Source: Thermogutta terrifontis (GTDB lineage: Bacteria > Planctomycetota > Planctomycetia > Pirellulales > Thermoguttaceae). From it: a stretch of DNA of 64,000 nt. Made by a program: the position numbers and the translations under genes. The notes below the pieces were generated by a model. It ran no database searches, was not told the origin of the DNA, and was given only the letters and a program-made list of their open reading frames with translations. The stretch is from positions 2,563,206 to 2,627,205 of the forward strand of contig NZ_CP018477.1 in NCBI RefSeq assembly GCF_002277955.1, written 5' to 3'. Of this stretch, positions 7,897 to 61,276 are shown piece after piece (within the stretch, counting starts at the first letter, position 1; each line of letters starts with the position of its first letter).

Positions 7897-9669
7897 TCAT
7901 CCGTTGCTGCCGTACAAAGCAGCCTTAAACCGAGCACCGGTTTCCCTTTCTTCGCGAATCCACGCGGAAACTTCCGCAACAACCTTGTCCAGGGGCATGA
8001 GCTGCGGGGCCTTCTCCCAACGCCATTTCACCTCGACATTTCCCTGCGCGAGACCTCGCTCACCCACCACCACGCGCATCGGAAATCCGATGAGATCGAC
8101 ATCTTTAAACTTGACCCCGGCCCTGACATCCCGGTCATCCAGAATGACCTCGATATTCTCTTTTTGGAAGGCATTATAAAGCTGGAATGCCGCTTCGCGC
8201 GATTTTTCATCGGCCACATTCACAGGCACAATGACCACCTCGTAGGGTGCCAGTGCCACCGGCCAGATGATACCGTTTTCATCGTGAGTAGTCTCGATGA
8301 GAGCTGCGAGAATGCGATTAATGCCGATACCGTAGCAGCCCATTATAATCGGCTTAAGTTGCTCGCTGGGATCGAGAAAGCGGGCGGAGAGAGCTTCTGA
8401 GTATTTCGTCCCCAGCTTGAATACGTGACCCACCTCGATGGCCGGCCTGAGCCGAAGGATCCCGCTGCACCGGGGGCAGGGGTCGTTATCCTGGGCACAA
8501 CGAAGGTCCGCGAAACGCTCAACGTTGAAATCCCGTCCAAGATTGACCCCCTTCAGGTGGGTGTCAGCTTCATTCGCCCCCGTGATCGCGTTGCGCATGA
8601 ACTGAATATCATAATCCGCGATAATCGTGAGCTTTTCCTTAAGTCCTACAGGACCTGCGAATCCCACCGGTGCGCCGGTGACACGTTCGATGGTCGCCGG
8701 ATCCGCGAGCTGGATCTCCTTTGCCCGCAAAGCACGACGGATTTTATTCTCATTCGCCTCGTGGTCTCCGCGGATGAGCACGGCTACGGGTTGACCATCA
8801 GCCAAATAAATGAGTGTCTTGATCAAATCCTCGGGACGACAGTTCAAAAACCGGCTGACCTGATCAATCGAGCTGGCACCGGGAGTTGGAACTCGTTCTA
8901 AAGGAGCCGGTTCCGTTACAGCAGGCTGCTCCGGTCTTCGCGGACCGATCTCGGCACGTTCCAGATTCGCGGCGTAACCGCACGCAGCGCAGTGGACAAT
9001 CTTGTCCTCACCGTTATTGGCTGGCACCATGAATTCATGACTGGCTTCCCCTCCGATGGGACCACTTTCGGCCTCCACCGGAATGTACGCCAGGCAACAC
9101 CGGTCAAAAATACGACAATAGGCGCGATACATCGCCTCGTAACTGCGGTTGAGGCCTTCCAGTGAAGTGTCGAAACTGTAGGCGTCTTTCATGAGGAACT
9201 CGCTGGTCCGCAGAACACCGAAACGCGGTCGCTCCTCGTTGCGGAATTTCGGAGAGATTTGATAGAGCGTGATGGGGAGCTGGCGGTAGCTCGAAATATG
9301 GTGGGCCACTAAATCGGTGACAATTTCTTCGTGGGTCGGCCCCAGCACGGAATTCACCTTCCGGTTTTGCCGTTTCAACTCAACCCGAATGAGAACGTCT
9401 CCAAAGGCCTTGTCGCGGCCGGTTCGTTCCCAGAGAGACAGGGGACTCAAACTCGGCATGAGCAACTCCACGGCCCCCGCTGCGTCCATTTCTTCACGAA
9501 CGATTCGCTCGGCCTTCCGCAGCGCACGCAGTCCCAGTGGCAGGTAAGTGTAGGCACCAGCCATGACCTGATTGATGAGTCCCGCCCGTAACATGAGCAC
9601 ATGGCTGGGAATTTCAGCGCCCTCGGGGATTTCCTTCAGTGTTGGGATGAAAGTCTTGGACCACAACAT
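7897..9669 (-). CDS. proS: Prolyl-tRNA synthetase, bacterial type
   Basis: Class II aminoacyl-tRNA synthetase charging tRNA-Pro. The 590-residue product has the bacterial architecture: catalytic core with [32 protein letters not shown] (motif 2) and [11 protein letters not shown]; an inserted YbaK-like editing domain around residues 260-390; then motif 3 ([10 protein letters not shown]) and an anticodon-binding C-terminus. Cys pairs (HCAACG and CPRC) sit near the two borders of the insertion and may bind zinc. A TTG 30 bases upstream extends the frame, but ATG 9669 aligns with the normal family start ([13 protein letters not shown]) and has GAAGG 10 bases before it. It converges on the YhdH-type gene. 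Confidence 0.96.
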
Positions 9670-44523: not shown

Positions 44524-44994
44524 ATGAAGGGGAACGAAAAACTGATCGCTGTGCTGAATGAGTTGCTCGCCGAGGAGTTAACGGCGATCGTCCAGTACAT
44601 CGTTCATTCCGAGATGTGCGCCGACTGGGGCTACGACCATTTGCACGAAGCCGTTGAAAAGCGTGCAATTCAGGAGATGAAGCACGCGGAAAGCCTGATC
44701 GCCAGGATTATCTTTCTCGAAGGCACACCGATCGTGAACCGGTTGAACGAGGTCCGTGTCGGCCCCAATGTAGCCGATCAGTTCCGTTCTGACCTCAACG
44801 CTGAATTAACCGCAGTTCAGGCGTACAACAAGGCAATTGCTTTGGCCCACGAGGTAGGTGATGCGGTCACTCGCGAGTTGCTGGAATCAATCGTGAAGGA
44901 CGAGGACCACCACGTGAATTGGCTGGAGGAGCAACTGGCTCAGATTGAACAAATGGGTCTGCAGATTTACCTCTCCACGCAAGCAAAGGGCTGA
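44524..44994 (+). CDS. bfr: Bacterioferritin
   Basis: Iron-storing, haem-binding ferritin-type 24-mer. The 156-residue protein is collinear with classical Bfr: MKGNEKLIAVLNELLAEELT with Glu18 of the ferroxidase site, IQEMKHAESLIARIIFLEGT with Glu, His and the haem-ligand Met near residue 52, NAELTAVQAYNKAI near residue 94, and VKDEDHHVNWLEEQL near residue 127. AGGAG lies before the ATG. All ferroxidase ligands are present, so it is probably active in iron oxidation and storage, fitting the haem-rich proteins encoded nearby. Confidence 0.95.
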   Translation: MKGNEKLIAVLNELLAEELTAIVQYIVHSEMCADWGYDHLHEAVEKRAIQEMKHAESLIARIIFLEGTPIVNRLNEVRVGPNVADQFRSDLNAELTAVQAYNKAIALAHEVGDAVTRELLESIVKDEDHHVNWLEEQLAQIEQMGLQIYLSTQAKG

Positions 44995-45320: not shown

Positions 45321-48300
45321 ATGAGTTGGCAAATGTCTCTCTCCCGAATCTATGTCGCGTTTGGCTGCTGCACAATGGTGGCAAATCTTTTTTTGATGGC
45401 GCCTCCTGGATGGGCGCAGGCCACATCGCCGTCCCCGCAACAGACGACCGATATCGTCTACCGCGCACTTGCGGCATTTAACAAAGGATGTGCTCTTCTC
45501 GAACAATATGAATACTCGGCAGCAAGTAAGCAATTCGAAGCCGTATTAAAGGAATTTCCGCAATGGACAGCCGCGAAATTCAACCTTGGGCTCGCCTATC
45601 TGAATATGATGGAGGATGCCGGGGGGAAAGAAATCATCAACCAGGCCGAGCGATTGTTTCAGGAAGTTGCCAGGGAGAATCCACAACTCATTCATGCCTG
45701 GTACTGCTTGGGTCTTTATTACGAACATGTAGGGCAAAGAGAAAAGGCGCTGGAAGCCTTTCAAAAAGCATATCAACTCGACCCTCAAGATCCTCACATT
45801 TGCCTCAAACTGGCAGAAGCTTACCTCGCGATGCAGCAAAACGAAAAAGCGATAGAACTCCTCGAACGGGCAGTCAACCTCGATCCGGGGTTCGTTTCCG
45901 CCATTTATCGACTGGCCCTGCAATACCAGCGTTTGGGAAAGCGAGATGCGGCTTCAAAATTATTCGAAAGGTTCCGCGCGCTCAATCAAGCGGAAGTCGC
46001 AGGTGGAAGTTTTACTGTACGAAAAATATATGGCTCGGCGGGAAAATACTACTATGCACTGGGACCTGACATGTTGCCGATTGTCCGACAGCTGGACACG
46101 GACGCCCACGCCGCAACTCCGGTTTTTGACCCCGAATCACGAGAACTCGTAAAAATGGGGCCTCCGTGGCGAGCAGGTCAAATATCTATCGAAATCGGCG
46201 GTGTCGCCGTGGCGGACCTGAATAAAGATGGTATTTTGGATCTGGTTTTAAGCGGTGTCACAAATGACCATGCTACTCAGGTTTTATTTGGAGAAAAAAA
46301 CGAGCATTTTCAACCCGGTGAAATATTGGCCACCCAAGCCATATGTGCGGCCGTCGGAGACGTTGACAACGATGGCGATGTGGATATCTGGATAGGCGGT
46401 GCAGGGTTCGTTCGTTTGATGGAAAACGATGGCACCGGCCATTTCAAACCGTTCTCGGGAACAGCTGCCTCCATGACCGGGGACTTCACTGCCTTACACG
46501 TGCGATTGCTGGATATCGACAGCGACGGGGATTTGGATCTCTATGCCAGCCGGTTTAATTCGAATGGTGAAGCGCTCGCGCCTTTGCTTTTGATCAACAA
46601 CCGCGACGGAACTTTCGAGGAAAAGGCTGCTGCCTGGGGACTGGAAACACCGCAATTCTCCGCAGTCGCGACGAGCTGGCTCGACATTGATAACGATCGT
46701 GATCTCGACTTAATTCTCGCGTCAGGAAAAGGTTCACCTGTCGTATGGCTCAACGATCGGGCCGGGGCATTTCGGATTGTCAAAGGCTCGGATGCAGGTC
46801 TTGACGTCCCCGGTGTTTCCGGCCTGACTACCGGGGATGTCAATTGTGATGGCAGGCCGGATCTTGTCGTACTCAGTAGCGGCCGGGTGAGGTTGTTCCT
46901 CAACCAAGGTGCATGCCGCTTTCGGGAGGACGAAGCCTTCGCACGGCAGTTTGGAAAGCTGGGCGGGACAATCGCACAACTTGCCGATATCGATAATGAC
47001 GGAGATGCGGATCTTTTTATTGCGGACACATATTTGCCGAATGGTGCCCGGCAACCCGTTATCCTCCTGAATTCCTGGCCAAAACCGGGGTTCGTGAACC
47101 TGTGCCAAGAAGACCCGCGATTTCTCTTTTGCGGCGTCCGCAACCAGGGAAACACCGCTGGAGTCCTCGCTGATTTCGATGGCGACGGTGGGCTCGATGT
47201 TCTTATTGCGCCGTTGAGCACCAGCAGCGTGTGGTTTAGAAATTGCGGTTCCCGAGGAAACTGGCTTAGCCTTGATCTGGCCGGAACCCGTTACACAGAT
47301 CAGAAGTCTCGCTCCAACGAATCCGCCATCGGTGCACGCGTGGAGGTTCGCAGCGGGCAAATCTTTCAGCAGTGGGATGTGGGGCAAATCGCCGGCAGTA
47401 CTTGCTGGGCACCTCTTCGGTTACACTTTGGCCTTGGGCACCAGCAGGAAGTCGAATGGCTCCGGATCATTTGGCCGGATGCGGTCCTCCAATCCGAGGT
47501 CTCAATCAAGGCCAACCAGGTGGCCAGTATTGGTGAAGTCCCGCGCAAAACATCTTCCTGTCCACATTTATTTGTATGGAATGGTGACCACTTCGAATTT
47601 GTATCTGATTTCGGCGGGAAGGGTGGGCTCGGATACTTGATTCGGCCGGGAATTTACGCCCAACCGTATCCCGTTGAATTTGTTCCCCTGCCTCGCATAA
47701 AGCACAATAATGATCCAATTGTCTGTAAAATCATCGAGCCATTGGAAGAAGTTGTGTATTTCGATCACGCTTCTCTCATCGCGGTTGATCACCCGGCGGG
47801 AACATTCGTTCTCCCCAACGAGATGATGCCGGTTTCGGTGACTGATATCCCCGAGGAGATTCTCTGTTTTGGCGAAGAACTGGATCCCATTGCTGCGACA
47901 AACGATCGTGGTCAGGATGTGCTTACCCTTCTGAAGAGAATTGATCGCGACTTTGTGGGGCCCACCGAGCAGGACAAACGCTTCGTTGGCTATGCGAAGG
48001 AGCATTCACTGGTGCTTCAATTTCCGGACACCCTGGATCGATGGATGGAGTTGGGAAGGCGGATCTTCTTTATTGGGCATGGTTGGGTGGAATACAGCTA
48101 CTCCCAGACAAATTTCGCCGCCGCGCAGGCGGGTCTTACTCTCCGAGCTCCCACTTTTGAAGTCTTTCGCGATGGAAAATGGATAGAACTCATCAGGGAA
48201 GCGGGATATCCGGCTGGTGTAAACCATTGGATGACGCTGGAATTGACGCATTTTCTGCAAAAAGGAGATCGCAGGCTCCGTATAAAAACAAATATGGACC

Positions 48301-48857
48301 TTTACTGGGACCGGATTTTTCTTGCAGCAACAATCGACGGTGCGATCCAGCAATCAGAGATACACCCGCGCCTCGCTAATCTGACATATCGCGGCTTTCC
48401 GCGAGAATACTCGCCGGATGGAAAACAACCCACACTTTTAGACTATGAGAGTATAGATCTTACTCTTCCCTGGAAATCTATGCCGGGATTTTACACGCGT
48501 TTTGGTGATGTGACAGAACTTGTCATGAAGCGTGATGACGCATTTGTCATTATGGGCCCCGGCGAGGAACTCACGCTTCAATTCGATGTTGGTCAACTCC
48601 CCGAACCACCCGCGGGGTATGTACGTTCATGGATCCTGAAAACAGACAGTTTCTGCAAGGATATGGATATTCATACCGCGGCAGGAGATCAAGTGGAGCC
48701 TCTGCCCTTTCACACGATGCGATCTTATCCGTACAGCTTGCCGGAGAAGTTTCCCGAAACGCCGGCGACTATCAGGGCGAGAACAATTTATAACGTACGA
48801 TGGATGGGATCGCGAAACGATTGGCCATCGAATTCTATTTCGAAGAGTGAAAGATAG
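45321..48857 (+). CDS. Exported TPR/FG-GAP/UnbV protein with large C-terminal domain
   Basis: A 1178-residue secreted protein. ATG 45321 has GGAG upstream and starts a signal peptide (ISRIYVAFGC...APPGWAQ type, residues 6-32). TPR repeats follow (about 45-220; AWYCLGLYYEHVGQREKALE), then FG-GAP repeats (about 245-650; GDVDNDGDVD, LDIDSDGDLD, ADIDNDGDAD), then an ASPIC/UnbV-like domain at about 670-745 (IGARVEVRSGQIFQ). The last ~420 residues begin CPHLFVWNGDHFEFVSDFGG, a stretch seen in some CRTAC1-type proteins, and have no assigned function. It is convergent with the minus-strand cluster 49018-60032 and shares the FG-GAP/UnbV theme with it. Confidence 0.85.
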   Translation: MSWQMSLSRIYVAFGCCTMVANLFLMAPPGWAQATSPSPQQTTDIVYRALAAFNKGCALLEQYEYSAASKQFEAVLKEFPQWTAAKFNLGLAYLNMMEDAGGKEIINQAERLFQEVARENPQLIHAWYCLGLYYEHVGQREKALEAFQKAYQLDPQDPHICLKLAEAYLAMQQNEKAIELLERAVNLDPGFVSAIYRLALQYQRLGKRDAASKLFERFRALNQAEVAGGSFTVRKIYGSAGKYYYALGPDMLPIVRQLDTDAHAATPVFDPESRELVKMGPPWRAGQISIEIGGVAVADLNKDGILDLVLSGVTNDHATQVLFGEKNEHFQPGEILATQAICAAVGDVDNDGDVDIWIGGAGFVRLMENDGTGHFKPFSGTAASMTGDFTALHVRLLDIDSDGDLDLYASRFNSNGEALAPLLLINNRDGTFEEKAAAWGLETPQFSAVATSWLDIDNDRDLDLILASGKGSPVVWLNDRAGAFRIVKGSDAGLDVPGVSGLTTGDVNCDGRPDLVVLSSGRVRLFLNQGACRFREDEAFARQFGKLGGTIAQLADIDNDGDADLFIADTYLPNGARQPVILLNSWPKPGFVNLCQEDPRFLFCGVRNQGNTAGVLADFDGDGGLDVLIAPLSTSSVWFRNCGSRGNWLSLDLAGTRYTDQKSRSNESAIGARVEVRSGQIFQQWDVGQIAGSTCWAPLRLHFGLGHQQEVEWLRIIWPDAVLQSEVSIKANQVASIGEVPRKTSSCPHLFVWNGDHFEFVSDFGGKGGLGYLIRPGIYAQPYPVEFVPLPRIKHNNDPIVCKIIEPLEEVVYFDHASLIAVDHPAGTFVLPNEMMPVSVTDIPEEILCFGEELDPIAATNDRGQDVLTLLKRIDRDFVGPTEQDKRFVGYAKEHSLVLQFPDTLDRWMELGRRIFFIGHGWVEYSYSQTNFAAAQAGLTLRAPTFEVFRDGKWIELIREAGYPAGVNHWMTLELTHFLQKGDRRLRIKTNMDLYWDRIFLAATIDGAIQQSEIHPRLANLTYRGFPREYSPDGKQPTLLDYESIDLTLPWKSMPGFYTRFGDVTELVMKRDDAFVIMGPGEELTLQFDVGQLPEPPAGYVRSWILKTDSFCKDMDIHTAAGDQVEPLPFHTMRSYPYSLPEKFPETPATIRARTIYNVRWMGSRNDWPSNSISKSER

Positions 48858-49017
48858 CGCCAAAAACAGAAAACCAACGTGCCACTGCGAGGTCTGTAAG
48901 CGGAATAGAGCTTTACAGTGCACTGGCTAGCAGCGACTCAACCACGTCTCATCTGCACGACCCCATGGCTCAAGCCGGGAAATCCTTCGACGTGCGCCTT
49001 AGCTTCTAGTAATAAGG

Positions 49018-50361
49018 CTAACGCGATGACGGCACTTCCGGGATGATCTTCCCGTTGCGAATAACCCCAGGCACAACCGAGCATTTATTCGCGTTGACCC
49101 TATCCCATTCAATGGTCCCGAAAACACCTCGATAGGGTGAAATGGCGAGCAGGCTGTTGTAGATCTCAACACGGTCGATGTTATCACGACCTCCTTGTGC
49201 GGCTCGCGCAACGGCATGAAGAAGCATACGAACGGCATCATAGGTGAGCGCGACAGCATAGTCGGGTTCGACAGCGAATTCTTTCTGAAATGTCTCTCGG
49301 AAGTCCTGTGGTATATGGCAAGAATCCGGAACAAGACATGGACAAATGATCCCTTCGGCGTCAAGACCGAGTGATTTGAGAGCGTCAACTCGGGAAACTC
49401 GCGCGTCGCACACAATTTGCACAGTGGATGTGTGGCGACGGATCTCGCGGATGATGGAAACGAGGAGAGGCCGGGGGGCACTTACAATCAGCCACTCGGG
49501 CGAGTTCTCGAGCGATTCCCAGACCGCTTTTGTAACGGCTTGCTCCTCTCGCGGGAGAATAATCACCGAATTGACCTGGCAACCGTGGCGGAGAAGCCAT
49601 TTGTTCAATTCACGCCAAAACCATTGAGAATCATGGTCACTTCCGAGAAGAACGGCAATCCGGCGGGGACAACTGCCGGCAATTCGTTGCGCCAGGACCG
49701 GCGCGATCAGATGGTCGCCCGGCGCAAGCGCGAAGATCCACGGCACACCTGCCAAATTAGTCGTCTTATCGGTGGCCACAGGTGAAAGCAAGGGCAAATG
49801 CACTTTGGCAACGATCGTTTCCGCGAGGTGTGTTGCTTCACCGTCGGTCCCGCCGACAACTCCGACGACGTTTTCCCGAAAAATCAATTCCGCAAGGGCG
49901 GATGCACCATCCGACCACGGCGAGTCCTTGATGAGAGGGACGAGGCGGCATGGCGGCAGCTTGTCGTGAAGCTCTCTTTGTGCATCATCAAGACCTCGTT
50001 GAGCCGCCCACCACAGACTCGCCATGCCTAAGTCATCGCTCTTCGACGGACCAAAGTATCCGATAATGACCTCTTTCCTTAAGGCTATCCCCGAACTTCG
50101 AAGGACAGGCGTGGAATTAATTGGATCGCGTGCCTTAAAAAAAGGATGGATTGAGCGATCAAACGGATAAATAATTCCGCCATTCGGGCCGTCCGCAATA
50201 AGCTCAGCGGTTGGGGTTCCCCAAGCGATCAATATAGCCACAATCGCGAAAAAAACCACGCACGCTCTGCCCATAAATTTGGACAAGCGTGGTCTTATAA
50301 GCACAGAGCATAACAACTGTGGCATGGGAACCGGTAGTCGCAGCCACCAAGGCTTAATCAA
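49018..50361 (-). CDS. Type-1 periplasmic ligand-binding protein (LivK-like)
   Basis: Substrate-binding-protein fold of the Peripla_BP_6/branched-chain amino acid receptor group. The 447-residue product has a hydrophobic signal segment (CVVFFAIVAILIAWGTPTAE, about residues 34-53), then KEVIIGYFGPSKSDDLGMAS, VVGVVGGTDGEATHLAETIV, PLLSPVATDKTTN and YAVALTYDAVRMLLHAVARA, the family's typical blocks. The longest start is TTG 50361, four bases from the upstream stop; ATG 50274 would give a cleaner signal. It is the last gene of the cluster. No permease or ATPase gene adjoins it. Confidence 0.85.
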   Translation of the reverse strand: MIKPWWLRLPVPMPQLLCSVLIRPRLSKFMGRACVVFFAIVAILIAWGTPTAELIADGPNGGIIYPFDRSIHPFFKARDPINSTPVLRSSGIALRKEVIIGYFGPSKSDDLGMASLWWAAQRGLDDAQRELHDKLPPCRLVPLIKDSPWSDGASALAELIFRENVVGVVGGTDGEATHLAETIVAKVHLPLLSPVATDKTTNLAGVPWIFALAPGDHLIAPVLAQRIAGSCPRRIAVLLGSDHDSQWFWRELNKWLLRHGCQVNSVIILPREEQAVTKAVWESLENSPEWLIVSAPRPLLVSIIREIRRHTSTVQIVCDARVSRVDALKSLGLDAEGIICPCLVPDSCHIPQDFRETFQKEFAVEPDYAVALTYDAVRMLLHAVARAAQGGRDNIDRVEIYNSLLAISPYRGVFGTIEWDRVNANKCSVVPGVIRNGKIIPEVPSSR

Positions 50362-50364
50362 GAG

Positions 50365-51861
50365 TTAATTCTGTGAAACTTGAACAGGCCGAGCGGGCAC
50401 CTCTTTCGGCAGGCCGAGGTCTTCTCTGGAGTAAAACTTCCACTGATTGTTTTCTCGGATCGCAAGATAAGCATCACTTGCCCGGTCTAAAACCGCCGTC
50501 AGCATTATTTCTCCGGTAACCCCATGCCACGGATCCCGCCGCGTGGCCAGCACATCCCGTATTTTGGCACGATTGAGTCCGGCCAGTTGGATCGCCCAGA
50601 TCAACATTTGAGTCCCATCGTAGGCATGCGCGGCGTAGGTTTCTGGCTCACAACCGAATCGCGCTTTAAATTTCTGCCGAAATTCTTCCAACCGGGAGTC
50701 ATCACGCGCGGGATTCCAGGGCGAAGCACAAACCACGCCCTCGGCATTTTTGCCAGCGATTTTCACAAAATCATCAAGCAAACAGCGGTCGCACGCAAAA
50801 AAGGGCTGTTTCATTCCCATCTCGCGCATCTGGTTGAGGATGCGGGCACCGTCTTCCGCGTCGCCCCAGTGAACAACCGCTTCCACCTGAGCGTCAGCAA
50901 GTCGTTGCAACTCCATCGAGAAGTCCTGTTGCCCCACAAAGTACGCCATCTCGATAGGCACAGGCCGTTCCAGGCGACGACTTGCATCACGAAATTCGCG
51001 CACCCCGAAACGGCCATAGCGGTTGCTCGCTCGAATGATGCCGACGCGACTGAGGCCGAGCTTCTTATAGATATAATCCGCTAGAATATAACACTGACGC
51101 CGGTCATCCGCAATAACTCGCAGAACCCATGGAATATTCGTCTCAATGAATGTCGGGTCTGTATCACCTGTATTGACCACCGGTACCTCCGCCTTGAGAG
51201 CGACGCGAATTGCAATATGACTGTTCGCTCCGTCGATCGTGCCAATGATCGCCCAAACATTCTCTATGTAGGCCAAGCGAATAATCTCATCTCCAGAAGA
51301 CCCCCACAGGCCGTTGTCATTGCGAACAACAAGTTCGAATGGTATTTTCCGCCGCCAGTAGCCGCCTGCGGCGTTGGCTTCCTCGATTGCAAGCTGGCAA
51401 CCACGGAGCATCATTTGTCCCAGATTCTCCTCATGGCTTTTTCCACCCGTTGCCACCGACACCGTAGGCTCGATCGGCCCCAAAAAGCCGATCTTAACAG
51501 TATCCACGTGTTCTGGCTCAGGAATACCCCGTCCCGGTCCTGTGTATTCCATCTGTACGAGGAAATACCTTTTAAAAGGTTGGGTCAGCCGTCCGAATGG
51601 ATCCAATTCTTTGGGTGTGTCGGCATAAACGGGGTCCACACGCAGGGGGAGTTGCGGCACTTGATAGGCCCCCGCACGATTGATGCGTTCGAGGATGCTC
51701 AACGTATAGTCATCCACAGGAAATGGCAGGTCTTCCTGATTTGGAAGAGCCCGGTTGTCTGCGCCCACTGTCGGGGCGGAATCGGATGCCGCAGCCAAAC
51801 CCATCTCCCAGATGAACATCGTGACTAAAACTAAGCCAGTAATAATGGTAACCCGACACAT
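50365..51861 (-). CDS. Second type-1 periplasmic ligand-binding protein
   Basis: A 498-residue exported protein of the same fold as its downstream neighbour. The signal peptide is MCRVTIITGLVLVTMFIWEM followed by GLAAA; GGAGAGAGGG lies before the ATG. A ~90-residue N-terminal extension (FPVDDYTLSILERINRAGAY) precedes the binding domain at about 120-460 (VKIGFLGPIEPTVSVATGGK; LAIEEANAAGGYWRRKIPFE; YAAHAYDGTQMLIWAIQLAG). It is about 50 residues longer than the first. The 3-base gap to the next gene implies co-translation. Two divergent binding proteins in one operon suggest two ligands or a heterodimeric sensor. Confidence 0.86.
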   Translation of the reverse strand: MCRVTIITGLVLVTMFIWEMGLAAASDSAPTVGADNRALPNQEDLPFPVDDYTLSILERINRAGAYQVPQLPLRVDPVYADTPKELDPFGRLTQPFKRYFLVQMEYTGPGRGIPEPEHVDTVKIGFLGPIEPTVSVATGGKSHEENLGQMMLRGCQLAIEEANAAGGYWRRKIPFELVVRNDNGLWGSSGDEIIRLAYIENVWAIIGTIDGANSHIAIRVALKAEVPVVNTGDTDPTFIETNIPWVLRVIADDRRQCYILADYIYKKLGLSRVGIIRASNRYGRFGVREFRDASRRLERPVPIEMAYFVGQQDFSMELQRLADAQVEAVVHWGDAEDGARILNQMREMGMKQPFFACDRCLLDDFVKIAGKNAEGVVCASPWNPARDDSRLEEFRQKFKARFGCEPETYAAHAYDGTQMLIWAIQLAGLNRAKIRDVLATRRDPWHGVTGEIMLTAVLDRASDAYLAIRENNQWKFYSREDLGLPKEVPARPVQVSQN

Positions 51862-51903
51862 AGTTCAACCCTCTCTCCACTCCTTATCAACCTATACACA
51901 ATT

Positions 51904-53139
51904 TTACTTTTCGCTCGTTGAGTTTAATTTATTAAGCCATTCTGGTTGCCGCCTGACTCCCGGGTAGTAGCCCCGCCCGATACCATGCGAAAGTCCCTTT
52001 GCAGTTCCTACCCATACGTCATCGCCATCAAAGTCCATTGCAATTATGAAGTTATGTGCGATACTCGTTTCAAGTGGAACTTCTTTAATTTTTCGTCCTT
52101 GACGGAAGACCTCCGCGCGTCCGCTCGAGTCATCACCGTTGCGGTAATAGGAGACGTAGGTATCGGTGGCGTAGTCAGCGACGACTCCGAGTCCCTTGTC
52201 TGTGCACATCCAACACTCCTGTCCGGAGCGAGCCCGAAGCGCGTTGGTGAAGTCGCTGGGAAGACCCGTCTCATGAGCATAAAACCCACGCCAGTATCGG
52301 CCGTCGTATCGACACTGCCCGAAGTAGGTGGATACCCAAAGCGCTCCGCCTACATAGTTTGCCGCGGTGGTAATGACATGAATGATTCCATCATCGCGGA
52401 AGAGGTCGATCTCCATTTCCCGATCAGGATCGAGATAAACCTTCCATTTTTCCGTCGGTACGTCGAATTCCAGGCAGCCACTTCCCCACACGGCAAGGAA
52501 AACCTTATTCACCTCCGGTGAGTAAAACACGTTGTAATTCCAGATTTCTTCCATTGGTGCGTTTTTCTCGGTGAAAATTGTCCATTCTTTAGTCGTCGTA
52601 TTATAGCGGCTTGCTCCGGCAGTTGTGGCGCACCATACGTTATCGTGTTCGACCGCTATCGCATAGACGACATTATTGACTAGTCCGCTGTTCAACTGGT
52701 GAAAATGGTCAAATCGCCCGCCGGACAGGCGAGCCACGCCACCTCCGAAGAGAGCCAGCCACACGTCACCGGTTTGGGGATCCACGTCAATTCCAGTTAC
52801 GGCACGCCAGGGAAGGCCATCTTTCTCCCTCCACACCGTGAATTTCCGCGTCTTCTTGTCATAACACGCCAGGCCGTTTTCCGTACCAACCCAGACCTTC
52901 TCCCCTGCACAACGCACGGCGAAAATATGGTCGTTGGGAAGTCCATCCTCTTCCGTAAAGTTTTCCCACTCCGTGTACACATACGGTAAATCATCGTCTG
53001 TAAGATTATCGACACTCTGCCCAAACGCGAGCTTGGGCACCTGTGCACCTGAAGCTTTTTCACCAGAAGTGGTTTCGGCCCATGCAGTGCCGGTCGCGAG
53101 TAGCCATGCCATTACCCACAGAAATACTGCACGCCACAT
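51904..53139 (-). CDS. Exported Reg_prop-type beta-propeller protein
   Basis: A 411-residue secreted propeller. The signal peptide is MWRAVFLWVMAWLLATGTAW followed by AE; GAGG lies six bases before the ATG. Repeats of the two-component-regulator-propeller type are visible: WENFTEEDGLPNDHIFAVRC, VWVGTENGLACYDKKTRKFT, VWREKDGLPWRAVTGIDVDP, VWLALFGGGVARLS, DVWVGTAKGLSHG. Such propellers are normally the sensor part of hybrid histidine kinases, but this protein ends after the propeller and has no transmembrane helix or kinase. Confidence 0.84.
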   Translation of the reverse strand: MWRAVFLWVMAWLLATGTAWAETTSGEKASGAQVPKLAFGQSVDNLTDDDLPYVYTEWENFTEEDGLPNDHIFAVRCAGEKVWVGTENGLACYDKKTRKFTVWREKDGLPWRAVTGIDVDPQTGDVWLALFGGGVARLSGGRFDHFHQLNSGLVNNVVYAIAVEHDNVWCATTAGASRYNTTTKEWTIFTEKNAPMEEIWNYNVFYSPEVNKVFLAVWGSGCLEFDVPTEKWKVYLDPDREMEIDLFRDDGIIHVITTAANYVGGALWVSTYFGQCRYDGRYWRGFYAHETGLPSDFTNALRARSGQECWMCTDKGLGVVADYATDTYVSYYRNGDDSSGRAEVFRQGRKIKEVPLETSIAHNFIIAMDFDGDDVWVGTAKGLSHGIGRGYYPGVRRQPEWLNKLNSTSEK

Positions 53140-53163
53140 AGTTGTCCTCGCTTCTCCGATCAG

Positions 53164-56076
53164 TCACAATGTTTTCAAATACTCAATAAGATCGTTCAAT
53201 TGATCCTTCGTAAGGTCGTTCGTCACACCGTGGGTGTCGTACGGGTTGTGGACAGTCCAAATTTCTTCCAGCGTCGGGGCGATTCCGTTGTGAAGATAGG
53301 GAGCGGAGTTATAGATGTTGAGAAGCTGTGGCGTATCAAACACACCATGCCGATCCAGCTTCATTTTGGTGCCCACATCGTGACTTCGCCGATCTGTGTA
53401 CAGCGGCGGTGGGTGGCAGGTGACACAACGATTTTCCGGTGGGATCAGGCGCCCATCATTCGTATAAATCCTCTCGAAAATAGCCCGACCGCGACGCTGT
53501 GCGGGAGTGAGCGGCGCCCCAACAGGTCGATGCCGATTGGGAGCGAGCGGGATAGTGCAGATATAATAATCCAGGGCCGTTAATTCCTCCGGAGTAAAAG
53601 GCTGAATGCGGGTAAAGAATACGGCAAGGCGGGTTCCGCATTGACGGGAAAGTGTCGGGTTGATTCCCTCCCATTTGAATGGGGATGTGTCAAGAATTCC
53701 CCTCAGAGTTCGGTTGTCGACGGGGTTGACCCCAATATCATCTTCAATATCGTACGTCAATCCTTCAACATGTCCGTCGGGATGGCAGCTCGCACAGGAA
53801 AACTGTCGATGGAATGTATTTTTCGCGCTGTGGAAAATGCGTTCCCCAAGCCGTTCGCGTGTGATAATCTTCGGACCACCCAGGTCAATTGTTTTCACGA
53901 GCTCCAAAGACTGAACGTCAATGATCCCTATGCTGTCATCGAGAGAATTCGCCACAAGGAGCAGCCCGCGTTTCTTATCGAGTGCAAGCCCCCGTGGACA
54001 GTGACCGACATCGATCTGCTTCAGAACGAACTCTGTGGCAGGCCCCAGGTGGTTGGGAAGAATTGATTCTCGAGTTTCGTCCGGATATGAACGAACGACC
54101 GCTTCCAGCTTCTTGAGATCAACAACCGCCACGCGGCTGTTACCCGCACTGGTGACAAACGCCTGGAGACCGTCCGGGCTGATGACAACGTCATGCGGAT
54201 CAGGAAAACATTCGCCTGGCTCATCGAGCAGGACTTGGTCAATGCGACCGTCCGGCCAGAGAATTCCCAGCCCGTTGGTGATCGTCCAGCCTTGAAGCAG
54301 TCGCGTGATTGGAATCACGTTCTTATGCCGGGCCAGGGTAAAAAGTGCAAATCGCTGCTTCGGATCCCAGGCCACTCCACGGAGGCCATTAGCCCCATGC
54401 GCCACCGGCCGATTCACGACTTGGACTGTGCTTGTGTCCAGTATGGTCAGCTCAGTCTGAGCTTCCGTGCGGAACGGCACAAATCGCGAGTAGATATTGG
54501 TAACCACAAGCCACTTTCCATCCGGTGAAAGACTCAAAGACCAAGGACCGCGTCCCGCGCTCAATGTCTTGACAACCTTAAATGACTTCAAGTCAACGAC
54601 GGATATATCATCCGAAAGAAAATTACAGACATACAAAAAGCGCCCCTGTGAATCGATCAATAGTCCGTGCGGCTCATCCCCGACAGAAATCGTTCGCACC
54701 ACTTTTTTTGTACGAATATCGACGACCGATACTGAATCATCCAGCCGGTTACTTACAAATGCGTAGAGGCCATCGGGCGTGAACGCTACGTCATGGGGTT
54801 GACGCCCCACGGGGATTTCGCCGCGAACCGTCATGGTGTCCAAATCGAGTAAAGCCACTGTATTTGAAGCCTCGCAGGCCACCAACGCAATGTCAAAGTT
54901 CGGCGATACGGCAATATTCACCGGCGTCTTATAAACCACTTCCGAATTCTGTGTGGAACGATCAGGCTGGGAAGGATGAGCAATTTTGGCCATCATTTGC
55001 TCGAAATCGAATGGTTTATCCGGGCTTGATTGATGGCATCCGAGGCATGTTTCACGGGTGGGTTTCCTAAGCGATCCGTCCTGCTGAGACAGATTACGCC
55101 GCCGGGACTCGACATGCTGACTTCCTGGGCCGTGACAGGCCTCGCATCCAACACCCTCGAACAGGTTGAAGCTCTCGCGAATTGCAGCAGCCGGTACATG
55201 ATAGGCCGTGGAATGACATTTCAAACATTGCGTCGCCGTCCGTGGATCCCCCTCCACCCCCCGCTTTTTCGCCAATTGCTGCCCTTTGGTCGAACCCAAG
55301 CACGAGTACGCCCCGGCGTGTTTACTTTCCAGCCACTTGCTGAACTGCCATCCGGAACGAGCACCGTCGTGGCACTCTGCACACACTGCAGATCCCACAA
55401 GGGCCGACTGCGTCTTGTCTACGGGCGGAGCGGGTCTTTCCAGTGGCGAGAGCGACGCATTAGATGGAACCGGATGTTTAATCGATTGCCAACCTTTGGC
55501 AATATCGAGGCCGGATTTACCCAGCACGCGCTGGTGGGATTCCTTCGGAGCGTGACAATATATACAACCTTCCAGCCCGGGCATGCGCAGGCCGCGTTCC
55601 ATGGCCTTCTGCCGATCCCGCATAATAGCAGCATCCGCATACTCACTTCCGGGTCCGTGGCATTTCTCGCACTGAACACCCTCGCGAACTGAAAATGTCG
55701 GATCCAGCTCCCAGGGTTCTGCCTCTGCTGCCGTTGCATGGCAACCCAGACATATCCGTGACTGATCGGGTTCCTCGGCCACTCCACTCAGTCGTGCAAT
55801 CTGCCTGGCCTCTGGCTTGTGCAGCGCCGCATACGCCCGGGCATGGGCAGATTGTGCCCAAATACCGCATTGATCGCCCAAAGATTCTCCTTCGTGACAC
55901 TCTGCACATACCTTCACACCGACATAAACAGGCTGAAAATTAGGCGGTGCGGCTTTTGAATCACGGGCCGCCAAAACCGAAACGCTAATCCCGATTAAGA
56001 TCCACGGTATCCGCCTCACCCAACTTGACCCCTTACCGGAGGATCGCAAAGTGCGTCTAAATCCCGCTGTACTCAT
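53164..56076 (-). CDS. Exported ten-haem cytochrome c with YVTN propeller and peroxidase-like C-terminus
   Basis: A 970-residue secreted electron-transfer protein. After a signal segment (WILIGISVSVLAA), CxxCH motifs begin at about residues 57, 109, 136, 171, 232, 284, 311, 344, 761 and 884. The first eight form two tetrahaem units with near-identical spacing (52, 27, 35 versus 52, 27, 33), including CEKCHGPGSE versus CEACHGPGSQ, in cytochrome c554 style. A YVTN-type beta-propeller covers about 365-745 (VVDIRTKKVVRTISVGDEPH). The C-terminus with two haems resembles dihaem cytochrome c peroxidase/MauG ends. GTG 56085 is a possible longer start; ATG 56076 is preferred. Confidence 0.88.
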   Translation of the reverse strand: MSTAGFRRTLRSSGKGSSWVRRIPWILIGISVSVLAARDSKAAPPNFQPVYVGVKVCAECHEGESLGDQCGIWAQSAHARAYAALHKPEARQIARLSGVAEEPDQSRICLGCHATAAEAEPWELDPTFSVREGVQCEKCHGPGSEYADAAIMRDRQKAMERGLRMPGLEGCIYCHAPKESHQRVLGKSGLDIAKGWQSIKHPVPSNASLSPLERPAPPVDKTQSALVGSAVCAECHDGARSGWQFSKWLESKHAGAYSCLGSTKGQQLAKKRGVEGDPRTATQCLKCHSTAYHVPAAAIRESFNLFEGVGCEACHGPGSQHVESRRRNLSQQDGSLRKPTRETCLGCHQSSPDKPFDFEQMMAKIAHPSQPDRSTQNSEVVYKTPVNIAVSPNFDIALVACEASNTVALLDLDTMTVRGEIPVGRQPHDVAFTPDGLYAFVSNRLDDSVSVVDIRTKKVVRTISVGDEPHGLLIDSQGRFLYVCNFLSDDISVVDLKSFKVVKTLSAGRGPWSLSLSPDGKWLVVTNIYSRFVPFRTEAQTELTILDTSTVQVVNRPVAHGANGLRGVAWDPKQRFALFTLARHKNVIPITRLLQGWTITNGLGILWPDGRIDQVLLDEPGECFPDPHDVVISPDGLQAFVTSAGNSRVAVVDLKKLEAVVRSYPDETRESILPNHLGPATEFVLKQIDVGHCPRGLALDKKRGLLLVANSLDDSIGIIDVQSLELVKTIDLGGPKIITRERLGERIFHSAKNTFHRQFSCASCHPDGHVEGLTYDIEDDIGVNPVDNRTLRGILDTSPFKWEGINPTLSRQCGTRLAVFFTRIQPFTPEELTALDYYICTIPLAPNRHRPVGAPLTPAQRRGRAIFERIYTNDGRLIPPENRCVTCHPPPLYTDRRSHDVGTKMKLDRHGVFDTPQLLNIYNSAPYLHNGIAPTLEEIWTVHNPYDTHGVTNDLTKDQLNDLIEYLKTL

Positions 56077-56201
56077 TATCGCCACGTCCGACGTTCACGT
56101 TTAAAATGCCTACCAACTACTCGCATGCTAAACTCACGATTTATTCGCAATCCCTGCTGCGATGACCTATACAAGCTTATCCTAAAACGCACGACAGTCC
56201 T

Positions 56202-57881
56202 TTAGTCAGGTTCAACAACTTTGAGTACCTGGTTCGCCTTGACGTTCTCCAAACGTGTTTTTTTACCGTTTGGCCAGCGGATTTCGACCCAGTCGGCAAC
56301 GGTGTTGTCTCCCGACCCAAAATGAACCCGCGGATCCATCTGCGACAGGTATCCACGGGTCGGAATAGCATCGCGGAACTGAATCAGCGACCCGGCGCGG
56401 ACTGTGACCCTGGCACCGATCGCATCCGTTTTTCCATTAGAGCGCTTGGGCCAAACCATAAGCCAATTCTTCCGGTTTCCCCCGTCGTTGCGTAAAAGGA
56501 CTGGCCTATCATTGAGATTAATTATGAGGAGGTCTAGGTCACCATCATTATCAAAGTCACCACATGCCACAGCCCGTCCTACATGCTTTTCGTGGAAATA
56601 TGCACCGGATTGATGCGACACGTCGACGAATTGTCGATTTCCCACATTCCTCAAGAGCACATCCTCTTCCGGATATTCATGGTGGGCATCCCCGTTTGCC
56701 ACAAAAATATCCAACCAGCCATCATTGTCGTAGTCGAAAATGACCGATCCCCAGCCGGTGTATTGTCCACACACAGCGGCGATTCGTGAACGTGCCGTCC
56801 AATCCTCAAAATATTCACCGAAATTGATGAGCAAGCAGCTATAATCCATATCTGGAATGAAAAGATCCAGCAAACCATCGTGGTCAATATCGCCAAAGTC
56901 CGGCCCCATACTGGATACACCCTGCCCCGCCTCTCCAAAGGCAAGGCCCCTGGGTAGGGCTTCGTTGCTGAACTTCCCGCCTCCCAAATTCAGGAAGAAA
57001 TCGTTTGCCATCGCATCGTTAGTAACATAAATATCGAGCAGGCCATCGTTATTTACGTCGGCCACCGTCGCGCTCATGCCACGCCCCTCCGGATTCCATA
57101 CTCCTGCTTCTTTGGTAACATCGGTAAAAGTGCCGTCCCCATTATTTCGATATAGACAATCCGGTTGTCCCTCATAACTCAGCGGGCCTGGATAGCCGTC
57201 CGCCTTATAAAAAGCACGAAAGGCCCCCAGATCATATTGCAGATAGTTACACACATAGACGTCCAGCAGTCCGTCGCCGTTGTAATCAAACCAGGGTGCG
57301 GACAGGCTCCATCGGGGATCATCCAGGCCAGATTGGCGGGAAACATCGGTAAATGTTCCATCCCCGTTATTATGGTAGAGAACATTTGGACCATAATTGA
57401 GGACATAAAGGTCAACAAATCCATCATTATCGTAATCTGCTGCTGAACATCCGCTTCCGAAATGCGTGTCGCCGACTCCCGCCTGATCCGTCACATCCGT
57501 GAATGTTCCGTCTCCGTTGTTTCGATACAGAGCGTTGCGAAGCTGCCCGCGTAAATGACGGCCTCGATTACTGCTGACGCCGGGAGTCCAAGCACCGTTG
57601 ACAAAGTAAATATCCATCAGGCCATCATTGTTGTAATCAAAGAACAGCGCCCCGCTGCCTGTCCCTTCGACGATGTTGCTGAGTTCTTCATCGCCAAAAC
57701 TGTGTTTAAAGGTGATGCCTGCCTCCCGCGTCACATCCGTGAAGGTTGGCAGGCTCTGAGCAAGAGACGGCACGCTGAGCGTGGTCCAGTAAAGGGACAC
57801 TGAAGCCAGAAACGCTAGACGCATCCACCGGGCAGGTGCGTTTGTGTATAGAAATCTGTATAGAAATGATAACGTGTTCAT
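56202..57881 (-). CDS. Exported CRTAC1-like FG-GAP/UnbV protein
   Basis: A 559-residue secreted protein. The signal segment is RLAFLASVSLYWTTLSVPSL, ending SLAQ. FDYNNDGLMDIYFVNGAWTP, ADYDNDGFVDLYVLNYGPNV, FDYNGDGLLDVYVCNYLQYD, ADVNNDGLLDIYVTND and GDFDNDGDLDLLIINLNDRP are successive calcium-binding FG-GAP/VCBS loops, each commonly followed by NNGDGTFTDVT. An ASPIC/UnbV-type domain ends the protein (IGARVTVRAGSLIQFRDAIP; VEIRWPNGKKTRLENVKANQ). It resembles the C-terminal half of the TPR protein at 45321 without the TPR part. It shares the cluster with the multihaem proteins. Confidence 0.88.
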   Translation of the reverse strand: MNTLSFLYRFLYTNAPARWMRLAFLASVSLYWTTLSVPSLAQSLPTFTDVTREAGITFKHSFGDEELSNIVEGTGSGALFFDYNNDGLMDIYFVNGAWTPGVSSNRGRHLRGQLRNALYRNNGDGTFTDVTDQAGVGDTHFGSGCSAADYDNDGFVDLYVLNYGPNVLYHNNGDGTFTDVSRQSGLDDPRWSLSAPWFDYNGDGLLDVYVCNYLQYDLGAFRAFYKADGYPGPLSYEGQPDCLYRNNGDGTFTDVTKEAGVWNPEGRGMSATVADVNNDGLLDIYVTNDAMANDFFLNLGGGKFSNEALPRGLAFGEAGQGVSSMGPDFGDIDHDGLLDLFIPDMDYSCLLINFGEYFEDWTARSRIAAVCGQYTGWGSVIFDYDNDGWLDIFVANGDAHHEYPEEDVLLRNVGNRQFVDVSHQSGAYFHEKHVGRAVACGDFDNDGDLDLLIINLNDRPVLLRNDGGNRKNWLMVWPKRSNGKTDAIGARVTVRAGSLIQFRDAIPTRGYLSQMDPRVHFGSGDNTVADWVEIRWPNGKKTRLENVKANQVLKVVEPD

Positions 57882-57926
57882 AAGGTAGACGACCTCTCCG
57901 AGTGCGGTCTGCTGATTTACAAGATA

Positions 57927-60032
57927 TTACTGTATTGCAAATGGATGTTGACGATCATACAAAGCGCCAGTGTCAATCCACTCAATCATTATTTGCACAT
58001 CTTTTTGGGATAAGGGTTGCACCTCAGGGTCGTTGGGCCAGGGTTTATACGGTCGGGAAGGCCATTCTCCATCCCACGGTTTTGCCAGGTTTTTAGACAT
58101 CACGTGCCAGACAAGCGAACTTAAACGAGCTGCGCCGGGCACCACGTAAACGGGCGCGGCATCGGCAGCCTCCGCCGAAGACGGAGTATCAGCAGAGCGA
58201 ACCAGCTGCGCGTATGAAAACGCTGGCGACGCTGACACGGGACCAGGATGAGCCGGATCCGCCGATGGAGCCAGCCACGGCCTTGTTCGCGGCGGAGTAT
58301 GGCAATTCAAACAGGACCGTTGAATAATAGGCCAAACGTCGTGTACAAAGTCGGGCACAGTGAGGGAAGCCGAGGGCTCAATCCGTGGTCGATCTTCCCA
58401 CAGGGCGTCAGCCATTCTGTTAAACGGCACACGTTCCGGATCTTCATGACAGCCAATACACCCTTGATGAACGCCGCCCTTGACCCAAAACCATCCGGAG
58501 GTTCGCACATTGATCCCCTGTTCGTCAATCAGTTGGAGTGCCAAGGGAACGTCGGAAGGGACTTCCACCTGGAAAGATCCGTCCGGATATATCGGAATTT
58601 CACCCAGCACGCGGAATGGAAAACGCGGCTGCCGATTGGCGGCGGTTTTCGGATCGGTGATAGCCTGCAAAACTCGCAACTTTTTGATCGAGCCTTTCGG
58701 AAATCCCTGATCTCCCAGGTCGTTGTCGTAAACGCTCAAGCAATAGAGAGTGCCGCAAGACGCGTTGTCATCAACCCCCGAGGATCGGCCGTCGGGAAGG
58801 AGTCGGGGAGCAACTGGCTTGGCCAAGAGTTCGTGGTAACGGGGATCATCGAAGAGCGGCGTCCATGCGCGTGCTTCTAAATCAAAAATACCAAGCGCAA
58901 ACGAACTCCCGCCGGTTCGGGGGCGCCGTGAAACGAGCAGACGCCCATCTGGGAGAGCGCACGGCGAGTGATAGACCCACGCCCGATCTTCGGTAAGGCG
59001 TTGATATGTCCGTAAAGGACGTCTCAAATCGACACATGCAATCTGTCCTGCCCCATCCGGTGTCAATTCGTCGCTTTCTATGAAGACCAATTTTCCGAGC
59101 AGGCCGTGGGGAATGACGGTTGGCATAAGCTTGTACCTGGCTCCGATGCCTGGTAAAAAATTCGCAGGGTCCGTCCCGTCTGTGTTGACCGCCAGGAGGT
59201 CCAAACGCACCTGTGGATCGTGCGGGTATGACGAGCGAAAACTGGCAAAAACAATCCTGCCATCAGGAAGCAGTGTCCCGGGCAGATCGGGTGCATGACT
59301 AACCGTAAGACGTCGAAAATGTGACCCATCCATGCGACAGGAGAACAGAGACGAAACCGCTGTGCCTGTGAGTGCCGATGCTTCTTCGCTCAACACTCGA
59401 AAAAGCGTGATTTGAAACCAGGGAAGCGGGGCATCGAGAATATACTGAGTGGATTGGTAGCTGGGAGATCGACAGTCGCGTGCCTCACGTGTGATTTGCC
59501 GCAGAGTTCGCGTTTCCAGATCGAGCTCATAAATGTTCCAGGGTGCATTAGCCTCAGGTTTACCGGCGAGGAGCAGCTTTTTTCCGTCAAAGAACACATC
59601 TGCTTCGGCCGTAGCAAAAAACGAGGGTAGCAGAATTTCCGGCTCGCGACCCGGCTGAAGAAGCACGAGGCGACATGGCCGATTTACGCCGACCAGAGTC
59701 CCGGGGTACGGTGTGGCGATCAGGTCCCCGCTTCCCTCAACTGCCACCTGTGTCAGTACAATAGGACAAGGGAGATTATCCACCGAAGGGGGGGCTGCCC
59801 TCAGTTGCCCAACTGTGATAACAAAGACGGCCACCCCCGATATCAAAGACCAGCACGGCAAAGGCAAGACACGTGTCTGAAAGATGTGCTGTCGCTTCCA
59901 GATTGGCCTGACCCAACCAGAAATCATGACAAAAGAAACCCAGTTAACGAACAGAGCGTTGACCATCGTGAATGGACTGAGAGTAAAAAGCGATTTTACA
60001 GCCGGACCTTCTTGATTGCAACAAATTGGCAC
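57927..60032 (-). CDS. HzsA-related exported dihaem protein
   Basis: A 701-residue secreted protein that resembles proteins annotated as HzsA-related, after the alpha subunit of hydrazine synthase. A hydrophobic segment (CWSLISGVAVFVITVGQLRA, about residues 60-79) acts as signal. The middle is a TolB-like propeller (LPDGRIVFASFRSSYPHDPQ). Then comes the characteristic IPIYPDGSFQVEVPSDVPLA, GWFWVKGGVHQGCIGCHEDP (haem site at 525) and CLNCH at 574. Start is uncertain: GTG 60032 has AGG upstream, whereas ATG 59927 gives a more compact signal. It is the first gene of the cluster. Hydrazine synthesis itself is not implied. Confidence 0.78.
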   Translation of the reverse strand: MPICCNQEGPAVKSLFTLSPFTMVNALFVNWVSFVMISGWVRPIWKRQHIFQTRVLPLPCWSLISGVAVFVITVGQLRAAPPSVDNLPCPIVLTQVAVEGSGDLIATPYPGTLVGVNRPCRLVLLQPGREPEILLPSFFATAEADVFFDGKKLLLAGKPEANAPWNIYELDLETRTLRQITREARDCRSPSYQSTQYILDAPLPWFQITLFRVLSEEASALTGTAVSSLFSCRMDGSHFRRLTVSHAPDLPGTLLPDGRIVFASFRSSYPHDPQVRLDLLAVNTDGTDPANFLPGIGARYKLMPTVIPHGLLGKLVFIESDELTPDGAGQIACVDLRRPLRTYQRLTEDRAWVYHSPCALPDGRLLVSRRPRTGGSSFALGIFDLEARAWTPLFDDPRYHELLAKPVAPRLLPDGRSSGVDDNASCGTLYCLSVYDNDLGDQGFPKGSIKKLRVLQAITDPKTAANRQPRFPFRVLGEIPIYPDGSFQVEVPSDVPLALQLIDEQGINVRTSGWFWVKGGVHQGCIGCHEDPERVPFNRMADALWEDRPRIEPSASLTVPDFVHDVWPIIQRSCLNCHTPPRTRPWLAPSADPAHPGPVSASPAFSYAQLVRSADTPSSAEAADAAPVYVVPGAARLSSLVWHVMSKNLAKPWDGEWPSRPYKPWPNDPEVQPLSQKDVQIMIEWIDTGALYDRQHPFAIQ

Positions 60033-60166: not shown

Positions 60167-61276
60167 ATGCGAGAACGGGACTCTAAACTCCGGCGACGTG
60201 TGGCGTGGGAAGCGGCACGCCTGATGTACTTCCGGGAGGAGACCGAATATTATCGCGCCAAGTTAAAGGCGGCCCGCCGAGTTTTTGGCCCCGACGTTCG
60301 GCCGGGAGACCTCCCCAGCAACCGCGAGATTCGCGAACAGATCGAGGCCGTTGCCCGCGCTTTCGAGGGGGAAAAGCGGGTCCAAAAGTTAGGAGAAATG
60401 CGGCTGGAGGCTCTCCGCATGATGCGGTTACTGAAAGAGTTCCGCCCCCGCTTGGTGGGAAGCACCCTCACCGGTCACGTGCGCCGTGGCTCGGACATCG
60501 ATATCCATGTCTTCTCAGACAGCGTGGAAGCGGTCCGGCTAACACTGGAGCAGGCCGGACTGCCCCACGAGGTGATTCGTAAGCGGGTTGTCAAACACGG
60601 GGAGGAACGGACCTACACGCACATCCACGTTTCCGGGCAATTTGAGTTTGAATTGACCGTCTATCCGAGCGAGTTGGTAAACTACCGCTTCAAAAGCTCG
60701 ATCACAGGCAAACCGATGGAGCGCGCGTCAATCGAGGAACTTGAAAAACTGCTTGCCCGCGAGCATCCCCAACTCATGGTGGAGATCGAGTCGGACGACG
60801 CGGAGACGGTTGTGGACCGGTTCCGCGTGTACGAATCCCTCCTGCTGCCGCTGGAGAAGGTGAAAGAAGACCCAAGGTATCACCCGGAGGGTGATGTTCT
60901 TTACCACAGTCTCCAGGTTTTTGAATGTGCTCGGGAAGAGTCCCCCTACGACGAAGAATTTCTTCTCGCAGCTCTTTTGCACGATGTGGGAAAGGCCATT
61001 GACCCCAAAGACCATGTGAAGGCGGGCCTGGAAGCCCTGGAAGGTTTTATTACAGAGCGGACGGCCTGGCTCATCGAGCATCACATGGAAGCTCAGGGGA
61101 TCCTTGATGGAAGCATCGGGGCGCGAGCCCGCCGCCGTCTCGAGGCTTCGGAGGACTTCGACACTTTGATACTTCTTGCCAAGTGCGATCGGGCTGGTCG
61201 GCGGGTGGGCGTCAAAGTTCCGGACCTTGAAGAAGTCTTCGAGTACCTTCGCAGCCTAGAACGCGATTTCCAGTAG
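60167..61276 (+). CDS. Nucleotidyltransferase fused to HD-domain phosphohydrolase
   Basis: A 369-residue cytoplasmic protein. Residues about 70-180 form a pol-beta-type nucleotidyltransferase domain with LVGSTLTGHVRRGSDIDIHV, matching the GSxxxG...SDIDI metal-binding signature. Residues about 225-365 form an HD domain: DVLYHSLQVFECA, LLAALLHDVGKAIDPKDHVK with HD, and IEHHMEAQG. This two-domain order resembles CCA-adding/poly(A)-like proteins but lacks their RNA-binding part and normal length. GGGGAG lies just before the ATG. It might make and destroy a nucleotide-modified product; the target is unknown. Confidence 0.78.
   Translation: MRERDSKLRRRVAWEAARLMYFREETEYYRAKLKAARRVFGPDVRPGDLPSNREIREQIEAVARAFEGEKRVQKLGEMRLEALRMMRLLKEFRPRLVGSTLTGHVRRGSDIDIHVFSDSVEAVRLTLEQAGLPHEVIRKRVVKHGEERTYTHIHVSGQFEFELTVYPSELVNYRFKSSITGKPMERASIEELEKLLAREHPQLMVEIESDDAETVVDRFRVYESLLLPLEKVKEDPRYHPEGDVLYHSLQVFECAREESPYDEEFLLAALLHDVGKAIDPKDHVKAGLEALEGFITERTAWLIEHHMEAQGILDGSIGARARRRLEASEDFDTLILLAKCDRAGRRVGVKVPDLEEVFEYLRSLERDFQ

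Follow-up and report, generated by a model that had tools for sequence, protein, structure and literature searches.

The genome of Thermogutta terrifontis (one contig of 4,810,751 bases) carries, in the 64,000-nucleotide stretch analysed here as a whole (the window), a run of six minus-strand genes, A to F (49018-60032), and a convergent gene G. They encode a protein related to the alpha subunit of hydrazine synthase (HZS) (A), a CRTAC1-like protein (B), a ten-haem fusion protein (C), a Reg_prop beta-propeller (D), two type-1 substrate-binding proteins (E and F) and a long TPR protein (G). Comparison with related genomes pointed to a common core of multihaem cytochrome, propeller and binding protein, usually accompanied by B. 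Judging from gene content, the HZS-like enzyme is often added to this core but can be replaced, which is the main new result of the analysis. Exported binding proteins encoded together with haem carriers and an HZS cousin were found in about thirty related genomes. We give roughly even chances to the locus encoding one exported redox complex, in which a binding protein would be coupled to a haem wire; any specific chemistry is put forward with much lower confidence.

The common core was deduced from single-chain fusions and from loci lacking the Hzs-like enzyme. D and E form one open frame in two families (L071:8008-10509, 833 amino acids; L072:4211-6970, 919 amino acids), the two fusions being 74% identical to each other. 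In family f87, two loci (L076 and L077) encode B, then a four-haem c554 domain fused to D, then E, and a third (L075) encodes c554-D-E as a single chain of 955 residues. The Hzs-like enzyme was found neither in the cluster neighbourhood of this family nor by the search with C. The last of the four loci keeping the core without an Hzs-like enzyme alongside, L078 (genome G402), carries a seven-haem cytochrome, B, D, two E-like proteins and a G-like gene. The initial annotation had suggested that ligand binding acts on electron transfer, and these fusions of the binding protein to a propeller and to a tetrahaem c554 fit that idea. The AlphaFold model of the D-E fusion showed good domains with a pTM of 0.54, and because of this value nothing is claimed on the relative placement of the domains. 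An apparent "B-D fusion" of 1287 residues in L078 was rejected, as its N-terminal extension is spurious and B is read in a different frame; a DAHP-synthase-like frame lies between B and D of the same locus (~7430-8320).

The gene order A-B-C-D-E(-F) was found, as far as contig ends permit, in 13 of the 119 genomes of the family, representing 7 of its 40 genera, and also in three genomes from other families (G100, G116 and G519). The exception is G623, where F is encoded on the opposite strand, at the other end of the cluster. Separate searches with D and with E in the 119 family genomes returned exactly the 13 with full-length C and none besides (p = 1.3e-17 by genome and 5e-8 by genus if independent, both probabilities ignoring shared descent). 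G, counted also where it was distant or on another contig, is encoded by 10 of the 13 C-bearing genomes and by none of the 106 others of the family. Across 392 genomes of the phylum, E was detected in 17, and 13 of those encode C at E<=1e-60 (p = 1e-12). Orthologues of B (61-97% identity) are sited between A and C in other loci of the same type (clade I, see below), and those of F (30-75% identity) adjoin E. The mean identity in eleven clusters was 59-64% for B, C, D and E and 43% for A, and the pairwise divergence of C tracks that of A (r = 0.95) and E (r = 0.88). The initial annotation had treated the genes as one unit and had named co-occurrence in other planctomycete genomes beforehand as the test that could refute it. 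The search, once run, did not refute the grouping, which is not due to chance, given the order recurring in other genera and the presence of D and E in exactly the C-bearing genomes.

The structure of E was modelled with AlphaFold (pLDDT 81) and is predicted to resemble LivK/LivJ, the best PDB match being LivK 3td9 (TMt 0.84) and the closest solved relatives 3td9 and 4gnr. While E shares the type-1 fold with LivJ/LivK, its pocket differs from theirs: in the alignment to 4gnr combined with that of the orthologues, the canonical Ser is replaced by a conserved Gly and the Thr is not invariant. The Asp-Arg pair D358, R359 is invariant in the orthologue alignment. Taken together, the Ser/Thr changes and the invariant pair suggest that the ligand of E is probably small and polar and not a standard branched-chain amino acid. 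Residues 357-360 of E (Cys-Asp-Arg-Cys) are invariant in clade I, clade III keeping the Asp-Arg only; the motif is possibly a disulfide or a metal site near the ligand cleft.

A Liv importer requires two permeases of the BPD_transp_2 family. The whole genome of T. terrifontis encodes two Peripla_BP_6 proteins, which are E and F, and two BPD_transp_2 permeases, each single and each located beside a two-domain RbsA/MglA-type sugar ATPase. No Liv-type permease (paired LivH/LivM) was found in the whole-genome permease inventory. Since the genome is without a classical amino-acid (Liv-type) importer, E and F cannot belong to one, and ligand binding by them probably serves the redox complex. The initial description of the binding proteins as lacking a transporter partner thus holds for the entire genome. 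In contrast to LivJ/LivK, E also has relatives fused to a propeller and a cytochrome.

To our knowledge, hydrazine synthase was long thought to be without relatives. A matched PF18582 (3e-16), the NCBIfam model hydrazine_alpha (104.5 bits against a cut-off of 800) and the HZS alpha chain 5c2v_A (1.7e-24); its closest named record comes from Thermogutta sp. MAG-77 (81%). C had initially been described as a ten-haem cytochrome. Ten CxxCH motifs are indeed present, but the protein is not a plain cytochrome: residues ~54-360 comprise two cytochrome c554 domains with eight CxxCH (PF13435, four haems each), residues ~385-725 an HzsB-like 7-blade propeller and residues ~740-973 an HzsC/MauG-like dihaem domain, so that its HzsBC-like nature had gone unrecognised. 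C matched the NCBIfam model hydrazine_BC (1.4e-57, score 195 against a cut-off of 1250) and the structures 5c2v_B (3.8e-37), 5c2v_C (2.6e-21) and c554 1bvb (1.3e-8). Homologues of the alpha, beta and gamma subunits are therefore all encoded in one gene run, with an eight-haem extension, and A and C would together form an enzyme resembling hydrazine synthase, attached to a haem wire.

Compared with anammox HzsABC (5c2v), the homology of the three subunits, the gamma-I haem motif, the equivalent of Cys165 and the two haems in alpha are shared. In contrast, key catalytic residues are missing here, the beta-gamma part is fused to an eight-haem c554 module, and binding proteins and propellers are associated with the enzyme. 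No equivalent of alpha Tyr591, the ligand of haem alpha-I, is present in A (CIGCHEDPE aligned with CSGCHYGSY) or in any aligned orthologue. The position of alpha His772, the distal ligand of haem alpha-II, is occupied by Glu, the second CxxCH itself being present, and that of the zinc ligand Cys303 by Phe. Cys303 is not retained in all anammox bacteria. In C, the beta-loop Glu253 corresponds by alignment to Arg (the residue number being fitted to the chain), and Trp occupies the gamma His144 position in all aligned C-type sequences. The equivalent of gamma Cys165, the third covalent haem link in HZS, is present in C at the level of the residue. This cysteine (QCG), the gamma-I haem motif and the Trp are invariant in 19 of 19 aligned clade-I/III-type sequences, and the cysteine is found in a W...QCG context also in four clade-III-type sequences. 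The HzsB-type loop KN.(V/I)P(M/I)TR...QGWT(I/V)TNGLG is strongly conserved across clade I, which fits a retained alpha-gamma connection and falls short of proving channelling. By these alignments, A and C are not a hydrazine synthase.

Clusters of HZS homologues were assigned to four clades (I-IV) by Hagglund et al. 2025 (PMC12758564, December 2025), with T. terrifontis in clade I; this placement is that of the paper and not of a tree made here. According to its main text, clade I comprises alpha, CRTAC1 and beta-gamma with eight extra haems, followed downstream by two ABC substrate-binding genes, and the Cys165 equivalent is mentioned for it. The same text concludes that the homologues lack key residues and are not anammox enzymes, and our alignments agree with it on the missing catalytic residues. 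The T. terrifontis locus, with its HzsA-like protein, CRTAC1, HzsBC-like fusion with two c554 domains and two binding proteins, has this order and is of the same type. HzsABC-like genes were also reported in Phycisphaerae by Suarez et al. 2023 (PMC10732223). The system can accordingly no longer be called undescribed, as it was in the initial annotation, since A, B, C and both binding proteins figure in PMC12758564. The main text of that paper contains no Reg_prop gene, no D-E, c554-D or c554-D-E fusions, no obligate co-occurrence and no Hzs-free variants, nor a missing permease, a TPR/UnbV gene or a role for the binding proteins. Beyond this paper, the literature searches brought up no binding protein linked to a cytochrome. 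As a whole, the initial interpretation is partly supported.

In the mechanism that we infer, which extends to physical assembly in T. terrifontis, the direction of electron flow, substrate, ligand and channelling, E (with F) would be docked via the propeller D onto the c554 haem wire, with B, and often G, acting as further structural partners. The wire, fused in T. terrifontis to the HzsBC-like propeller and dihaem enzyme, would pair through the latter with A. In the periplasm, E and F would bind a small, polar organic molecule and either hand it to the haem enzyme or signal its presence to that enzyme. The c554 haems would conduct electrons between the gamma-I-like haem and the respiratory chain, and a small substrate would be turned over at gamma-I, an N-oxide or some other small inorganic compound being the most likely candidate. 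From there the product may travel past the propeller loop and reach the alpha-I-like haem of A, and A may carry a second reaction site, both as in hydrazine synthase. A bolder reading, which is tentative and in our estimate rather improbable, is that of a hitherto unrecognised kind of periplasmic enzyme system: an ABC-type binding protein that has lost its transport role would be structurally linked through a propeller to a multihaem wire, and it would feed or switch a haem enzyme that can be exchanged for another. Within that reading, the binding protein of the HZS-like variants could hold an organic nitrogen compound, to be joined to, or processed with, a reduced nitrogen intermediate arising at the haem.

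Several observations weigh against the proposed coupling and its chemistry. The fusions come from other genomes of the phylum (metagenome-assembled genomes) and none was found in T. terrifontis, the c554-D-E triple fusion being a single case. As the strict co-occurrence was seen within one family, it represents less than 13 independent events (7 genera). The loss of key hydrazine-synthase residues means that the chemistry of that enzyme is not transferable to this one. NrfA, the nitrite-to-ammonium reductase, is encoded in 10 of the 13 carriers against 22 of the 106 others (p = 9e-5 by genome), but the association disappears at the genus level (p = 0.38). For NrfA or an HAO-like protein, a union picked after the data had been seen, the counts were 12/13 and 26/106 (genus p = 0.08). 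Nitrogen-oxide respiration as the context was set aside as suggestive only, the NrfA enrichment failing by genus. If the coupling is real, LivJ-type binding proteins would be at work in electron transfer and not in transport. The HZS homologues are embedded in a conserved ligand-binding, propeller and c554 assembly, which some genomes retain although they lack the Hzs-like enzyme. The identity of the E/F ligand is therefore a direct route both to the substrate of the HZS homologues and to how the anammox enzyme arose.

In hybrid two-component systems, Reg_prop propellers make up the sensor part. Together with the D-E fusions and the missing permease, this role speaks for a periplasmic sensor, in which ligand sensing by E/F and the propeller would act on the cytochrome complex allosterically, with no substrate being delivered to it. 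However, neither a kinase nor a transmembrane relay is encoded in the locus, and gating and feeding by the ligand cannot be told apart from the sequence; a sensor is considered doubtful. It is still less probable that E and F are ordinary importer components which share an operon with the HZS-like enzyme and have their permease elsewhere in the genome. Both have LivJ-type folds, operons may contain unrelated genes, and the main text of PMC12758564 labels them ABC transporter substrate-binding proteins. Nevertheless, the two single permeases beside sugar ATPases do not make up a LivHMGF set, and within the family E occurs only where the cytochrome module does, being elsewhere fused to D or c554-D. 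An orphan importer was rejected on the permease inventory and on the D-E and c554-D-E fusions.

The dihaem domain of C, with two c-haems and an interhaem Trp as in MauG, MbnH and bacterial dihaem cytochrome c peroxidase (CCP), could alternatively act in maturation, oxidatively modifying a residue of a partner such as E, D or B, which would then be the working product. C keeps the MauG/CCP interhaem Trp where HZS has His144 (our alignment; PMC12758564), and its domain weakly matches the MbnH- and MauG-family models. By a rough count of residue spacing, no Glu was seen in C where the distal catalytic Glu of CCP would be expected. These enzymes differ from C, which has the HZS-type Cys nearby (in every aligned clade-I/III member), the HzsB-type propeller with its conserved loop, the fused c554 wire and an HzsA partner. 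As no obvious precursor site was seen in any partner either, maturation appears unlikely. A true hydrazine synthase, that is, an unrecognised anammox bacterium, is barely credible: although alpha, beta and gamma homologues occur together and gamma Cys165 is conserved, it was rejected on the five missing residues (alpha Tyr591, His772 and Cys303, beta Glu253, gamma His144) and on scores far below the NCBIfam equivalog cut-offs, in agreement with the main text of PMC12758564 for clade I.

The seven open reading frames were all verified where the initial annotation had placed them (Table 1), and the gaps between A and F are close to those it gave. In the 5' to 3' direction of the minus strand they measure 45 (A/B), 116 (B/C, assuming the GTG start of C at 56085), 24 (C/D), 42 (D/E) and 3 bases (E/F). 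Pfam/NCBIfam profiles, on which the domain assignments are based, upheld the earlier calls for A, B, D, E, F and G. A hydrophobic signal-like N-terminal stretch, judged from the sequence directly and not by a signal-peptide predictor, is present in every one of the seven proteins, so all partners look exported, as had been claimed. Promoter and terminator scans of the locus gave background level only.

Table 1. Genes of the T. terrifontis locus (window positions).
Gene	Product	Position	Strand	Features
A	HzsA-like dihaem protein	57927..60032	-	N-terminal propeller, HZS_alpha domain, two CxxCH
B	CRTAC1-like FG-GAP/UnbV_ASPIC protein	56202..57881	-	FG-GAP_3 PF13517, UnbV_ASPIC PF07593
C	Ten-haem c554-HzsB-HzsC fusion	53164..56085	-	PF13435 x2, HzsB-like propeller, HzsC/MauG-like dihaem domain
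D	Secreted Reg_prop beta-propeller	51904..53139	-	PF07494 9e-7
E	LivJ-type (type-1) substrate-binding protein	50365..51861	-	Peripla_BP_6 PF13458 1e-39
F	Second, diverged type-1 substrate-binding protein	49018..50361	-	Peripla_BP_6 PF13458 1e-16
G	1178-residue TPR + FG-GAP_3 + UnbV_ASPIC exported protein	45321..48857	+	Convergent to A-F

The bacterioferritin gene (44524-44994) does lie beside the group, adjoining G, as it does in another Thermogutta (L058); this neighbour is confined to Thermogutta loci, so the initial annotation was right on its position and not on its relevance as a cluster member. The divergent neighbour on the other side (60167-61276) encodes an HD domain, its N-terminal half appearing nucleotidyltransferase-like by eye, and in L058, too, it is a neighbour of the cluster, on the upstream side of A.

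Other HZS-like loci were observed as well. The T. terrifontis genome itself has a second HZS-like pair elsewhere (L040, G000:C1 3628-3637 kb), a 781-amino-acid HzsBC-like and a 1023-amino-acid HzsA-like protein with a GH2-family gene between them; the HzsBC-like protein is without the Cys165 equivalent, and a cytochrome bd-like subunit is encoded nearby. A third HzsA-like protein of 838 amino acids with three CxxCH and no adjoining HzsBC partner is encoded in the same genome (L041, G000:C1 1632-1635 kb). A genome of the same class contains a different HzsA/HzsBC-like pair (L039, G006:C109, 9215-14226 and 5313-7211), whose HzsA-like protein is much nearer to the true hydrazine synthase alpha (288 bits, 1e-85). 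This pair has Trp at the His144 position and no Tyr591, and its neighbours are a NapC/NirT-type tetrahaem gene and an HAO-like multihaem gene.

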